Positions 2,483 to 28,150 of a stretch of 64,000 nucleotides of DNA are shown in pieces. Positions within the stretch are counted from its first letter, which is position 1. Every line of letters begins with the position of its first letter. The notes under the pieces are model-generated. The model did no database searches. It was given only the letters and a program-made list of their open reading frames with translations, and was not told the origin of the DNA. This DNA comes from Clostridiaceae bacterium (GTDB lineage Bacteria; Bacillota; Clostridia; Peptostreptococcales; Tindalliaceae): assembly GCA_011390155.1 (NCBI GenBank), contig JAABSW010000003.1:1-64000 (forward strand), written 5' to 3'. The position numbers were made by a program, and so were the translations under genes.

Positions 2483-6214
<3,732 letters not shown>

Positions 6215-20493: not shown

Positions 20494-20527
20494 AGCATAG
20501 TGGACTTTCAATATGAGTGAGGGAATG

Positions 20528-20566
20528 GGATTCTGGCGGTGAGCTGCTAGGATCCTTTTCCTTTTT
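20528..20566 (+). terminator. Rho-independent terminator between the oxidoreductase operon and the Ubl cassette
   Basis: GGATTCTGGCGG-TGAG-CTGCTAGGATCC pairs over 12 positions (three G:U) and is followed by TTTTCCTTTTT. Confidence 0.75.
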
Positions 20567-20642: not shown

Positions 20643-20912
20643 ATGGGTAAAGTAAATGTGTACATTGTTGATACTACAGGGAACAAAGAGCAACAGGCAA
20701 GTTTACCGGACGATATCCCGGTTAACCGTATTTTAGTCAAATTAGCTGAAAAAATGGAGTTGCCGGTAACTGGGCCGGATGGCAACCCCATCAGTTACAA
20801 GTTTATTCATAAAGCATCAGGCAAGCAGCTGACTGATGAACAAACATTGGGAGAAGCAGAGGTTCAGGAAGACGATGTCCTGCGCCTTCAGCCTGAAATT
20901 ACGGCTGGGTAA
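20643..20912 (+). CDS. Ubiquitin-like protein (YukD/EsaB-type beta-grasp), C-terminus EITAG
   Basis: 89 aa from ATG 20643 with RBS GAGGAGG; beta-grasp-like pattern VNVYIVDTTGN...PVNRILVKLAEKMELP...YKFIHKASGKQLTDEQTLGEAEVQEDDVLRLQPEITAG; next to E1/E2/JAB/RING genes. Confidence 0.82.
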   Translation: MGKVNVYIVDTTGNKEQQASLPDDIPVNRILVKLAEKMELPVTGPDGNPISYKFIHKASGKQLTDEQTLGEAEVQEDDVLRLQPEITAG

Positions 20913-20923
20913 CACGGTAAGCC

Positions 20924-22126
20924 ATGGGCAAGATTGTTCAGCCAGGGGGAAAAAGAGTGAAACCAATCAACATCGACATTGAAGAAGAAGACCGTTATGC
21001 AAGATTTCGACTGATCCCGTGGTGGGACCAGGAAAAACTGAAAAAAGCAGTGGTGATGGTGGTTGGTGCAGGAGCCATTGGTAATGAAATACTTAAGAAC
21101 CTGGCACTTCTGGGTGTGGGCACCATCCTCATTGTCGACATGGACACCATTGAGAACTCTAACCTTTCCAGGGCAGTACTCTACAGAGAAGAAGATGAAG
21201 GCAGTTATAAAGCCCAGACCGCTGCCCGGCAGGTGCGGGAACTAAACCCGGATGTGAAGGCAATTCCTATCAATGGCAGTGTTATCACAGATGTGGGAAC
21301 AGGCTTTTTTCGTCACGTAGATTTGGTTTTGGGAGGTCTGGACAATCGGGAGGCCAGGCTGGTCATCAACCAAAAATGCTGGCACACCTCAACTCCGTGG
21401 ATCGATGGTGCTATTGAGGTGTTTCAAGGATTCGCCAGGGTTTTTGTACCGCCTGGCAGTGCCTGTTATGAATGCACCATGAATGAAATCGACTACAAAC
21501 TTCTGAATTTCCGTAAATCCTGTTCCTTACTGTCAAGAAAAGACCTGCTGGAAGGCAAGGTGCCAACAACACCCACCACTGCATCAGTGATTGCAGGCCT
21601 GCAGGTGCAGGAAGCTGTAAAGCTGCTTCATGGCGATCGCAATCTTCATCCATTGTGTGGCCAGGGTATTGTTTTCAATGGCCTCACCCATGACACTTAC
21701 CAGGTGAACTATACCAGAAATAATAATTGTTTGAGCCACGATACGTGGGAAAACATTGTTGAAATGAATTGGAGCTCAAAGGAAACAAGCTTAAAGGAAG
21801 TCTTGGTTGAAATCAAAAAACGATTATCTCCAAAGGCTGTTTTGGAGACGAGTGTTGAAATTTTGTTAAATGGTACATGTGTCTGTGGCCACGTGCAACA
21901 CTATTATCGACCCTTGATAACAGTGGCAGAAGATGAAGTACTCTGTCCTGGCTGCGGAAATGAACTGGACTTACAATTGACTCACCGGTTTGAGGGGGAT
22001 GAACCCTTTGTTGAAAAAAAACTGGCAGACATCGGGTTCGCACCAGGAGAAATTCTGGTAGGCTGTGAGGGCTCACGGGTGATCTACCTGGAATTAACAG
22101 GGGATATTATCCAAATGATAAAATGA
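20924..22126 (+). CDS. E1-like ubiquitin-activating enzyme (ThiF/MoeB/UBA family) with C-terminal Zn-ribbon and extra domain
   Basis: VMVVGAGAIGNEILKNLALLGVGTILIVDMDTIENSNLSRAVLY; CYEC at 181-184; candidate catalytic Cys200 in FRKSCSLLSRKD; Zn ribbon CVC...CPGC at 319-344. Confidence 0.92.
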   Translation: MGKIVQPGGKRVKPINIDIEEEDRYARFRLIPWWDQEKLKKAVVMVVGAGAIGNEILKNLALLGVGTILIVDMDTIENSNLSRAVLYREEDEGSYKAQTAARQVRELNPDVKAIPINGSVITDVGTGFFRHVDLVLGGLDNREARLVINQKCWHTSTPWIDGAIEVFQGFARVFVPPGSACYECTMNEIDYKLLNFRKSCSLLSRKDLLEGKVPTTPTTASVIAGLQVQEAVKLLHGDRNLHPLCGQGIVFNGLTHDTYQVNYTRNNNCLSHDTWENIVEMNWSSKETSLKEVLVEIKKRLSPKAVLETSVEILLNGTCVCGHVQHYYRPLITVAEDEVLCPGCGNELDLQLTHRFEGDEPFVEKKLADIGFAPGEILVGCEGSRVIYLELTGDIIQMIK

Positions 22127-22148
22127 GTAAGAAGGGAGGAGGCAGTCT

Positions 22149-22718
22149 ATGAATGCACGGCTGAGGAGACTGGCGTCCGACTATGAAAACCTTAAATTGG
22201 AATTTTCAAGGCATCCATACATTGACGTTGAACCATTATCCGGTGATCCACCGGATAAATACCTGGTCACCTACAAGGTGAGAGGATATAAATTGGACGA
22301 AAAAACCAACACACCGGTATTAATCAACCGACACCAGGTTGAAGTATACTTGCATGCAGCATACCCACGGGAAAAGCCCCGCTGCCAAATGAAAACACCT
22401 ATTTTTCATCCCAATTTCCGGTACCAGGTATGCATTGGCGATTACTGGGGAGCAGGTGAAAAATTGACCGATATCATCATCCAAATTGGCGATATGATTC
22501 AATATAAAAATTACAATCCCAAAAGTCCACTGAACATCGAAGCTTCCCACTGGGCAAAAGAACACACCCATTTATTTCCGGCAGACAATGTTGATTTATG
22601 GCAGGCTGAACCGGACATTAAAATGGGTAAAACGGATGATTTCAGCATCACATTAAAACCTTCCCAACGTAACAGGAATAATAAAAGGGAAACTGAACCG
22701 GACATCCAGCTGTTCTAA
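22149..22718 (+). CDS. E2-like ubiquitin-conjugating enzyme (UBC fold)
   Basis: FHPNFRYQVCIGDYWGAGEKLTDIIIQIGDMIQYKNYNPKSPLN: HPN motif, catalytic Cys95 (TGC at 22431-22433), Trp, and P-x-x-P-L-N end as in eukaryotic UBC domains. Confidence 0.9.
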   Translation: MNARLRRLASDYENLKLEFSRHPYIDVEPLSGDPPDKYLVTYKVRGYKLDEKTNTPVLINRHQVEVYLHAAYPREKPRCQMKTPIFHPNFRYQVCIGDYWGAGEKLTDIIIQIGDMIQYKNYNPKSPLNIEASHWAKEHTHLFPADNVDLWQAEPDIKMGKTDDFSITLKPSQRNRNNKRETEPDIQLF

Positions 22719-22740
22719 TAATAGTGATGGAGGCGATCAA

Positions 22741-23760
22741 ATGCAGGGAGACCAGAAGGTAAATGAAGGCCTGGAGGTTGGTTTTGAAATCGAACTGGGA
22801 GAAAAGGTTATACAAAAATCAATGGTAAGTGAAAAAACCATCCTTATAAAAAAACAGGTTCAGCAACAAATTGACGAATTCGGCTCTTTAGATACCACCC
22901 GAGAAGTGGGGGGTGTTTTGCTGGGCATACCTGAAGAGGGTGATGAGGGAGTACACCTGTCAATCACAGCCATGCTGAAAGCAAAAAAAACGGCTGCCAA
23001 TAAAACATCCATTACCTTTACCCATGAAACCTGGGATCAAATTCACCACGAAAAGGACATACTCTATCCAGACCTGAAAATTGTGGGGTGGTTTCATACC
23101 CATCCAGGTTTCGGTGTATTCCTGTCAAATTACGACTTGTTTATACAACAGAACTTTTTTAACCTGCCATGGCAAGTGGCGTATGTGGTTGACCCTGTAA
23201 ACAAGGAAACTGGTTTTTTTGCATGGGAAGGCGAAGAAATCAAAGCATCACATTACCGTGTATTGGATAATGGACAGGAAGTGCTCATTTCCCTTCCCCT
23301 TGAGGAAAGACCAGCCCCAGTCAATTCGGCTGAAGATGATGGTCATGAAAAGGCAAAAAGTTCAAACTGGTACAAAGTGATGCTGATTGTGATGGCTTTA
23401 CTATTGATTCTTACAAACCTTCACCGCATTGAAAAGCCTGAGATTGACCGCGAACAACAGGAAACGCTTCTTGCCAAGGAACGGCAGATCGAAACGTTAT
23501 TGGCCGAGCTGAACCACCAGGAAGAAAAAGTGACATCACTTCAGAATGAAACAGCGAGGCTGGAAGAAGTGGTAAACCAATTATCCGGAGAATACTTTTA
23601 TGTGTACACCGTGATGCAGGGTGATACGCTGTGGTCCATCAGCAGTCGTTTTTACAATGACCCTTCAGAGCATGAATTTATCATGAAGTTGAATGACCTG
23701 AACGACCCTGACAGCCTGGAAGTCGGACAAGACATATTATTATACAAAAAAGGTGATTAA
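22741..23760 (+). CDS. JAB/JAMM (MPN+) peptidase with TM helix, coiled coil and C-terminal LysM domain
   Basis: E55 plus GWFHTHPGFGVFLSNYD (HxHx7Sx2D); TM WYKVMLIVMALLLILTNL; LysM YTVMQGDTLWSISSRFYND...LNDPDSLEVGQDILLY. Confidence 0.92.
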   Translation: MQGDQKVNEGLEVGFEIELGEKVIQKSMVSEKTILIKKQVQQQIDEFGSLDTTREVGGVLLGIPEEGDEGVHLSITAMLKAKKTAANKTSITFTHETWDQIHHEKDILYPDLKIVGWFHTHPGFGVFLSNYDLFIQQNFFNLPWQVAYVVDPVNKETGFFAWEGEEIKASHYRVLDNGQEVLISLPLEERPAPVNSAEDDGHEKAKSSNWYKVMLIVMALLLILTNLHRIEKPEIDREQQETLLAKERQIETLLAELNHQEEKVTSLQNETARLEEVVNQLSGEYFYVYTVMQGDTLWSISSRFYNDPSEHEFIMKLNDLNDPDSLEVGQDILLYKKGD

Positions 23761-23761
23761 T

Positions 23762-24112
23762 ATGCAGCCTCATCGATCCAAATCCCACGTAGAGAATACA
23801 GTTTGTCCTTACTGCCAGACACCCATTCGTCTGGGAGAAAACACAGTGGTGTGTTCCTGCTGCAAAATGCCCCACCACCTGGAATGCTGGATCGAAAATG
23901 GACAATGCACCACCTATGGCTGTCGGGGAGAAAGAATGGCCAACGCTGGCATAAGGTCTCACAGAAAACAACAGCTTCCCCTTATTGAAATTACCTTTGA
24001 AGAACCGTCAAAAAACACGCTAAAAAGCGGTTTTAAAGGCCATGCCTGGAAAGTGGCGGTCTTGGTGGCATTCCTGCTGGGAGGCAGTTATTACCTATAC
24101 AGATTTCTATGA
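23762..24112 (+). CDS. RING-like (prokaryotic RING finger) protein with C-terminal TM tail anchor; candidate E3
   Basis: CPYC-x12-CSCC-xxxH-HLEC-W-x5-C-x4-C gives eight possible Zn ligands; C-terminal AWKVAVLVAFLLGGSYYLYRFL. Confidence 0.82.
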   Translation: MQPHRSKSHVENTVCPYCQTPIRLGENTVVCSCCKMPHHLECWIENGQCTTYGCRGERMANAGIRSHRKQQLPLIEITFEEPSKNTLKSGFKGHAWKVAVLVAFLLGGSYYLYRFL

Positions 24113-27923: not shown

Positions 27924-27969
27924 GTGAACATAGAGGAGTGATGCCCAAGGCCATGGAATACAACTGAAT

Positions 27970-28150
27970 AGTATAATCAAGCGCCTGGACTTTCGGGAAT
28001 TTTGAAAGTTGACGAGGAACAGGGAGTATCGAATCATCGGCGGATGCCCTGCGGTGAGTTCACCACCGACAAGGAGCCTACAAAGCTGGCAAGTAATTGG
28101 CAGTACAAAGTGGCCCGTGTGAATGACCTGTGATCATTTCAGAGGTCCTG
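27970..28150 (+). ncRNA. glmS ribozyme/riboswitch; predicted self-cleavage between 27980 and 27981
   Basis: AAGCGCCTGGACTTTCGGGAATTTTGAAAGTTGACGAGGAACAGGGAGTATCGAAtCATCGGCGGATGCCCTGCGGT matches the glmS ribozyme core as remembered; immediately upstream of glmS. The 3' boundary is approximate. Confidence 0.9.

Follow-up and report, generated by a model that had tools for sequence, protein, structure and literature searches.

Bacterial operons combining a YukD-like ubiquitin-like modifier (Ubl) with E1, E2, RING and JAB genes were reportedly predicted by Burroughs, Iyer and Aravind in 2011, and E1s of this type are said to carry a C-terminal ubiquitin-fold domain that presents E2. The experimentally studied bacterial Ubl systems (Bil, CBASS and Bub) have, to our knowledge, been treated mainly as defence, and we know of no RING-type E3 among them, nor of any RING in Bil. 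Comparative genomics has already described operons of the general kind (Iyer 2006, PMC1779556). Bacterial operons with a complete E1/E2/E3 set have been mentioned (PMC5654768), and Caldiarchaeum subterraneum has an operon of ubiquitin, E1, E2, a small RING and an Rpn11-like JAMM that removes the C-terminal extension before activation (PMC5654768). Here we analyzed a five-gene cassette at positions 20643-24112 of a 64,000-nucleotide stretch of DNA from a Clostridiaceae bacterium, a free-living relative of Clostridium (contig JAABSW010000003.1 of assembly GCA_011390155.1), referred to as the window. A sequence-only reading had described its plus-strand genes as a complete Ubl-E1-E2-JAMM-RING set of a class that is not new. 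Both points were borne out, the first by Pfam matches above cut-offs and by the named residues, which are present and invariant, and the second by the Pfam family Prok-RING_1 and the reported complete bacterial operons. Judging from its sequence and that of its relatives, the operon probably encodes a working, reversible Ubl conjugation system on the cytoplasmic side of the membrane. The genomes hold intact catalytic residues, a fixed gene set, an invariant Ubl tail, joint loss of E1, E2 and the RING core, and a later relaxation of the Ubl. The Ubl that drifts in two sister genomes without the attaching enzymes is, in our view, good evidence for such a system. The cassette and its parts are as follows.

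Positions 20643-20912, plus strand: Ubl of 89 amino acids, YukD-like beta-grasp protein (Pfam YukD, 1e-8), ending exactly in LRLQPEITAG
Positions 20924-22126, plus strand: E1 of 400 amino acids (ThiF, 6e-57), adenylation domain and C-terminal domain with a zinc ribbon
Positions 22149-22718, plus strand: E2 of 189 amino acids, a separate UBC-fold protein (UQ_con, 2e-8)
Positions 22741-23760, plus strand: JAMM deconjugase of 339 amino acids, with JAMM domain, membrane helix, coiled coil and LysM (JAB, 2e-11)
Positions 23374-23420, plus strand: predicted JAMM membrane helix, in the region of VMLIVMALLLILTN, located by reading the sequence
Positions 23605-23736, plus strand: LysM domain of JAMM, residues 289-332 (Pfam LysM, 3.3e-9), which would be external with the N-terminus inside
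Positions 23762-24112, plus strand: RING-type protein of 116 amino acids, with C4HC3 zinc module, linker and C-terminal membrane helix (Prok-RING_1, 1e-9)

These five ORFs fill the interval with intergenic gaps of 1-22 bases, and a possible RING start, ATG 23762, lies directly 3′ of the JAMM stop. All five products exceed the curated Pfam cut-offs (YukD, ThiF, UQ_con, JAB plus LysM, and Prok-RING_1). Four other genomes from the family have the same five-gene order, and the arrangement is therefore not a product of chance.

Cys200 of E1 (codon 21521-21523) was invariant in all seven E1s compared, one of them a cyanobacterial plasmid protein, as were the zinc site C181/C184/C269/H272 and the zinc ribbon C319/C321/C341/C344. 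An E1 profile searched against the PDB matched the eukaryotic Ub/Ubl E1s UBA7, UBA1 and UBA3 at 1e-46 to 1e-38, with ThiF and MoeB weaker at about 1e-30. For a ubiquitin-fold domain at the E1 C-terminus no sequence support was found, the zinc ribbon alone being detected in this region. The E2 residues H87-P88-N89 and the catalytic Cys95 (codon 22431-22433) were invariant in 6 of 6 relatives, and the profile built from these six had yeast Ubc13 as its best solved match (9e-6). The JAMM active site (E55 and H119-x-H121-x7-S129-x2-D132) is intact and was invariant in 11 of 11 sequences, with Rpn11 as the best solved relative in the PDB. The RING zinc ligands C15, C18, C31, C34, H39, C42, C49 and C54, in C4HC3 order, were invariant in 10 of 10 sequences. 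Prok-RING_1 was matched by all ten RINGs of the family (best 7e-15), PHD and C1 matches being weaker, and a PDB search using the RING alone gave no meaningful match. Membrane-anchored parts with LysM, as had been claimed, are present in the form of a predicted helix and LysM in the JAMM protein and a C-terminal helix in the RING protein.

The Ubl is the most conserved gene of the cassette. When the window is compared with intact relatives, four in number and from two genera, the Ubl is 92-95% identical, with silent sites saturated, as against 64-70% for E1, 73-82% for E2, 45-54% for JAMM and 50-55% for RING, and the flanking genes are also less conserved than the Ubl (CstA 80-87%, VorC 81-84%). 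Its last ten residues, LRLQPEITAG, were invariant in six sequences, and no orphan Ubl copies were found in the window's genome or in the four relatives. ITAG ends the protein in the window and in L008, and is followed by 1, 3, 4, 10 or 107 residues in other lineages. Since such extra residues fit a trimmed precursor, JAMM would probably also be the maturation enzyme that cuts Ubl precursors back to ITAG in those lineages. The longest form, a 196-residue Ubl on L045 (10757-11347), has after ITAG 107 residues consisting of a zinc ribbon and hydrophobic helices, and resembles a ubiquitin fusion precursor. FHA-like membrane proteins encoded on L060 (6611-7954) and L059 (98-1441) contain repeats, WEITAEELD and WEITGAELD among them, with a likeness to PEITAG at the end of the Ubl, and it is possible that these mimic the tail.

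Natural loss of the conjugating enzymes was observed in two genomes, G056 and G047, one per genus, in which the locus persists with its Ubl and JAMM genes but carries deletions that removed E1 and E2. The order in G056 is Ubl, a scar in which an E1 remnant (GFRVQEAVEQLHGDRNP) runs into the last part of E2, an intact JAMM, and a RING gene without the zinc core. In G047 it is Ubl, a scar with an E2 tail (SDKSDVEIELL), an intact JAMM, and a RING reduced to its first few residues. Because the two deletions differ, the losses were independent. Both took E1, E2 and the RING core and spared JAMM; by this genomic record E1, E2 and RING behave as one unit. Outgroup-polarised replacements in the Ubl numbered 11 on the G056 branch vs 0 on the window branch (p 0.001), and 6 on the G047 branch vs 0 on that of G039, and they include A88T and I86M, within the otherwise invariant tail. 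Branch counts of the flanking genes were symmetrical (10:12 and 9:13), and so were those of JAMM (6:6 and 4:5). Fisher tests of Ubl against the flanks gave 0.013 for G056 and 0.14 for G047, a moderate significance. Since the Ubl alone drifts once E1 and E2 are gone, its constraint is linked to these two enzymes, and they appear to hold it constant through conjugation. Given the unchanged rate of JAMM after the loss, JAMM may have work of its own, or the losses are recent.

We propose that E1 would adenylate the Ubl at its C-terminal glycine (..PEITAG), load it onto Cys200 and hand it on to E2, a separate protein, at Cys95. The RING protein, itself anchored in the membrane, would bring charged E2 to membrane targets, and the Ubl would be joined to a target lysine or another nucleophile. 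JAMM, with a membrane anchor and with LysM extending to the cell wall, would remove it, and would trim the precursors in lineages with residues after ITAG. Among these steps, we infer the thioester chemistry, the membrane topology, the role of RING as E3, and the membrane targets. Since no proteasome subunits were found in the window's genome, it is more likely that the tag alters the activity or location of its targets, or passes them to a different protease, than that it marks them for a proteasome. Several points speak against a working membrane system of this kind. The Ubl tail has a single glycine (TAG) instead of GG, the topology of the JAMM and RING proteins was inferred from their sequences, and the AlphaFold2 models of E1 (mean predicted local distance difference test score 38) and RING (57), made from 3-row alignments, were of low confidence and were set aside. 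Additionally, both reduced genomes come from fragmented drafts, with completeness of 75% and 96%, and JAMM was kept after E1 and E2 were lost, so that it may have an extra role apart from conjugation.

The N-termini of JAMM proteins, the tails of E2s and those of a membrane trypsin found in wider cassettes share a short motif, F-[DE]-I-x-[IL]. It was first seen by eye, and the search pattern, [FVIWY][DE][IV]x[ILVF], was derived from the JAMM N-termini. The pattern matched 5 of 5 trypsin tails and 9 of 10 E2 tails, against background rates of 4.7% and 8%, respectively, as well as 3 of 3 tails found subsequently. Shuffle P values are inflated because the tails are homologous, and the weight rests on the three unrelated protein families and the three later copies. 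The copies and related segments in the window are as follows.

Positions 22635-22655, plus strand: E2 tail motif DDFSITL, a variant outside the strict core pattern
Positions 22695-22715, plus strand: E2 terminal motif EPDIQLF, which ends the protein, a variant outside the strict core pattern
Positions 22783-22803, plus strand: JAMM N-terminal motif FEIELGE, with core FEIEL
Positions 23975-24004, plus strand: RING linker LPLIEITFEE, of which LIEITFEE is conserved within an otherwise variable linker

All copies of the motif would be cytoplasmic, given the predicted topology, and their alternating hydrophobic and acidic residues resemble SUMO-interacting motifs. The recurrence suggests a shared docking site, for which Ubl or E1 are the natural partner candidates. 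A tentative extension, which we hold to be rather doubtful, is that F-[DE]-[IV]-x-[ILF] serves bacteria as a counterpart of the SUMO-interacting motif. As a strand-forming peptide it would dock the E2 tail, JAMM and probably the RING linker onto Ubl or E1, together with the cytoplasmic tail of the membrane trypsin where the cassette is wider, and would so build a membrane-bound Ubl signalling platform. If true, such a platform could drive proteolysis outside the cell membrane.

The cassette is rare. Searched by E2, the 198 genomes of the order yielded 5 with the cassette, each from the window's own family, and the 398 genomes of the phylum also yielded 5, one of which has an E2 fragment only. 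Searched by Ubl, the cassette was present in 7 of 391 genomes of the class, and these were the same seven that have a cassette-type RING, with none else in the class sample. Prok-RING_1 matches in proteins of about 330 residues in other Clostridia stand in a different context and were excluded from the cassette counts. Anoxynatronum buryatiense carries the cassette (L007). Other Clostridia have a larger cassette, with Ubl, E1, an E2 that carries fused membrane helices and an FHA domain, one or two JAMMs, a longer RING, and an added trypsin-like protease with a signal peptide and a C-terminal membrane helix; LysM is found on one JAMM of this cassette in L044. The arrangement varies among relatives, as in L060, where the RING stands apart and is followed by Ubl, E1, JAMM and E2, and in L058 and L086, where E2 lies 34 kb from the rest. 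A mobilizable cyanobacterial plasmid of Crinalium, pCRI9333.03 (L062, 8421-8998), encodes a ThiF E1, two tandem small Ubl-like ORFs, an E2 and a Mov34/JAMM protein, adjoining a conjugation gene.

The upstream neighbours of the cassette are 2-oxoacid:ferredoxin oxidoreductase (vor) genes, and downstream, after a gap of about 100 bases, come a gene without assigned function and a CstA-type carrier gene. In some relatives two extra genes, which by eye look like a LytS/LytR-type sensor and regulator, lie between the cassette and the downstream genes, and the latter were therefore left out of the cassette. One further element was found upstream.

Positions 20527-20556, plus strand: terminator-like hairpin with 13 pairs, a loop of 4 and a T-rich tail, from a consensus scan

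This hairpin probably ends the upstream vor operon and makes the cassette its own transcription unit, although the scan found 6 such sites in the region vs 4.3 expected, which is weak evidence alone. Farther downstream, an ordinary glmS ribozyme (27969-28128; Rfam RF00234, 97 bits) lies upstream of glmS. Across the family the position of the locus is fixed, with the oxidoreductase operon on one side and the CstA-type gene on the other. The quiet housekeeping surroundings described earlier were thus seen again in the family; elsewhere, relatives occur beside helix-turn-helix (HTH) and M78 or WYL regulators and on the mobilizable plasmid, so that an argument from quiet surroundings is valid for the window's family alone. 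The step from such surroundings to a physiological role was not fully supported, the cassette being rare and its conjugating half having been lost at least twice in the family.

As for its role, the proposed conjugation system may serve to maintain the envelope or to defend against stress or phages. Envelope maintenance is conceivable, if somewhat short of probable: the Ubl would tag proteins of the membrane or of wall synthesis, and JAMM-LysM would read the state of peptidoglycan and set deconjugation accordingly. LysM points in this direction, being carried by JAMM in the family of the window and by one of the JAMMs in some other Clostridia. So do two features of the wider cassette, the membrane helices and FHA domain fused to E2 and the membrane trypsin whose protease domain lies outside, but LysM may merely anchor the protein, and the system can be lost. 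Anti-phage or stress-induced defence is possible too, though on the whole we doubt it. Damage would here activate the same chemistry, with phage proteins or those of damaged cells as its targets, as in Bil, which agrees with the rare and patchy occurrence, the repeated loss and the plasmid-borne cyanobacterial relative. Cassettes of other lineages also adjoin HTH and M78-peptidase pairs (a weak CapP match, 2e-5) or WYL-type regulators, and such regulators are used by CBASS and Bub operons: CapH/CapP, CapW or CapK/CapS (Bub) (PMC13373217). However, no regulator adjoins the cassette in the window's family, where the locus is fixed between metabolic genes, and the Ubl is extremely constrained, compared to the fast change common in arms races. 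Nor were E2 relatives found in phage records, or Ubl or E2 profile matches in viral contigs. The E1 profile matched two distant E1s in viral contigs, one of them beside phage tail genes; on L063, a viral contig of 4.7 kb, the E1 at 4246-4758, from the same broad family, is 45% identical over the matched part and directly follows phage baseplate/tail-fibre-like genes. A sulfur-carrier or other non-conjugating function of the YukD type, with E2 and RING as scaffolds, is very improbable, for although B. subtilis YukD was reported not to be conjugated (PMC1779556) and the Ubl terminates in one glycine, E1 keeps its catalytic-position cysteine, E2 its HPN and Cys, and JAMM all its ligands, the operon has no sulfur-transfer gene, and the constraint on the Ubl depends on E1 and E2.

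The window's cassette has every enzyme class, belongs to a lineage that includes cultured alkaliphilic anaerobes, and is small enough to be rebuilt in E. coli. Its two natural losses provide evolutionary evidence that E1 and E2 hold a bacterial Ubl constant, as is the case with ubiquitin, and from the shared motif comes a testable proposal for the assembly of such a system. These results bear on the origin of ubiquitin signalling before eukaryotes.

The general kind of operon is already known. As far as we checked, the literature searched contains no account of the LysM-JAMM variant, of the losses followed by relaxation, of the precursor series or of the motif, though Burroughs 2011 or the main Bil and Bub papers may describe some of them. 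Bil, CBASS and type VII secretion were rejected as identities of the locus, where their defining gene features are absent. Bil (BilABCD) likewise has Ubl, E1, E2 and JAMM in one operon, but BilD consists of an inactive and an active adenylation domain (PMC11354881), whereas the window E1 has a single ThiF domain in 400 amino acids, and the BilD profile covers residues 45-154 only (3e-7). CBASS type II Cap2/Cap3 and 6A-MBL share the E1 and E2 chemistry with a JAB protein, but have E1 and E2 fused where the window has separate ORFs (NF058523, 41.9 bits vs a cut-off of 320), and no CD-NTase or MBL gene was found near the cassette. The Ubl matches the same Pfam family as YukD of type VII secretion, and no WXG100 or FtsK-type ATPase genes were seen among the ORFs between 13 and 32 kb. 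Caldiarchaeum subterraneum shares ubiquitin or Ubl, E1, E2, a small RING and an Rpn11-like JAMM with the window, but it is archaeal and has a GG tail, whereas the window has a YukD-like Ubl with a TAG end, and membrane helices in JAMM and RING. The Burroughs 2011-type operons have the same five components, with the RING in Prok-RING_1, and the features of that type found in the window are the YukD-like Ubl with a C-terminal glycine, the E1 Cys, the E2 HPN and Cys, Prok-RING_1, and an intact JAMM. The window differs from them in its separate LysM-JAMM and its minimal RING of 116 amino acids.

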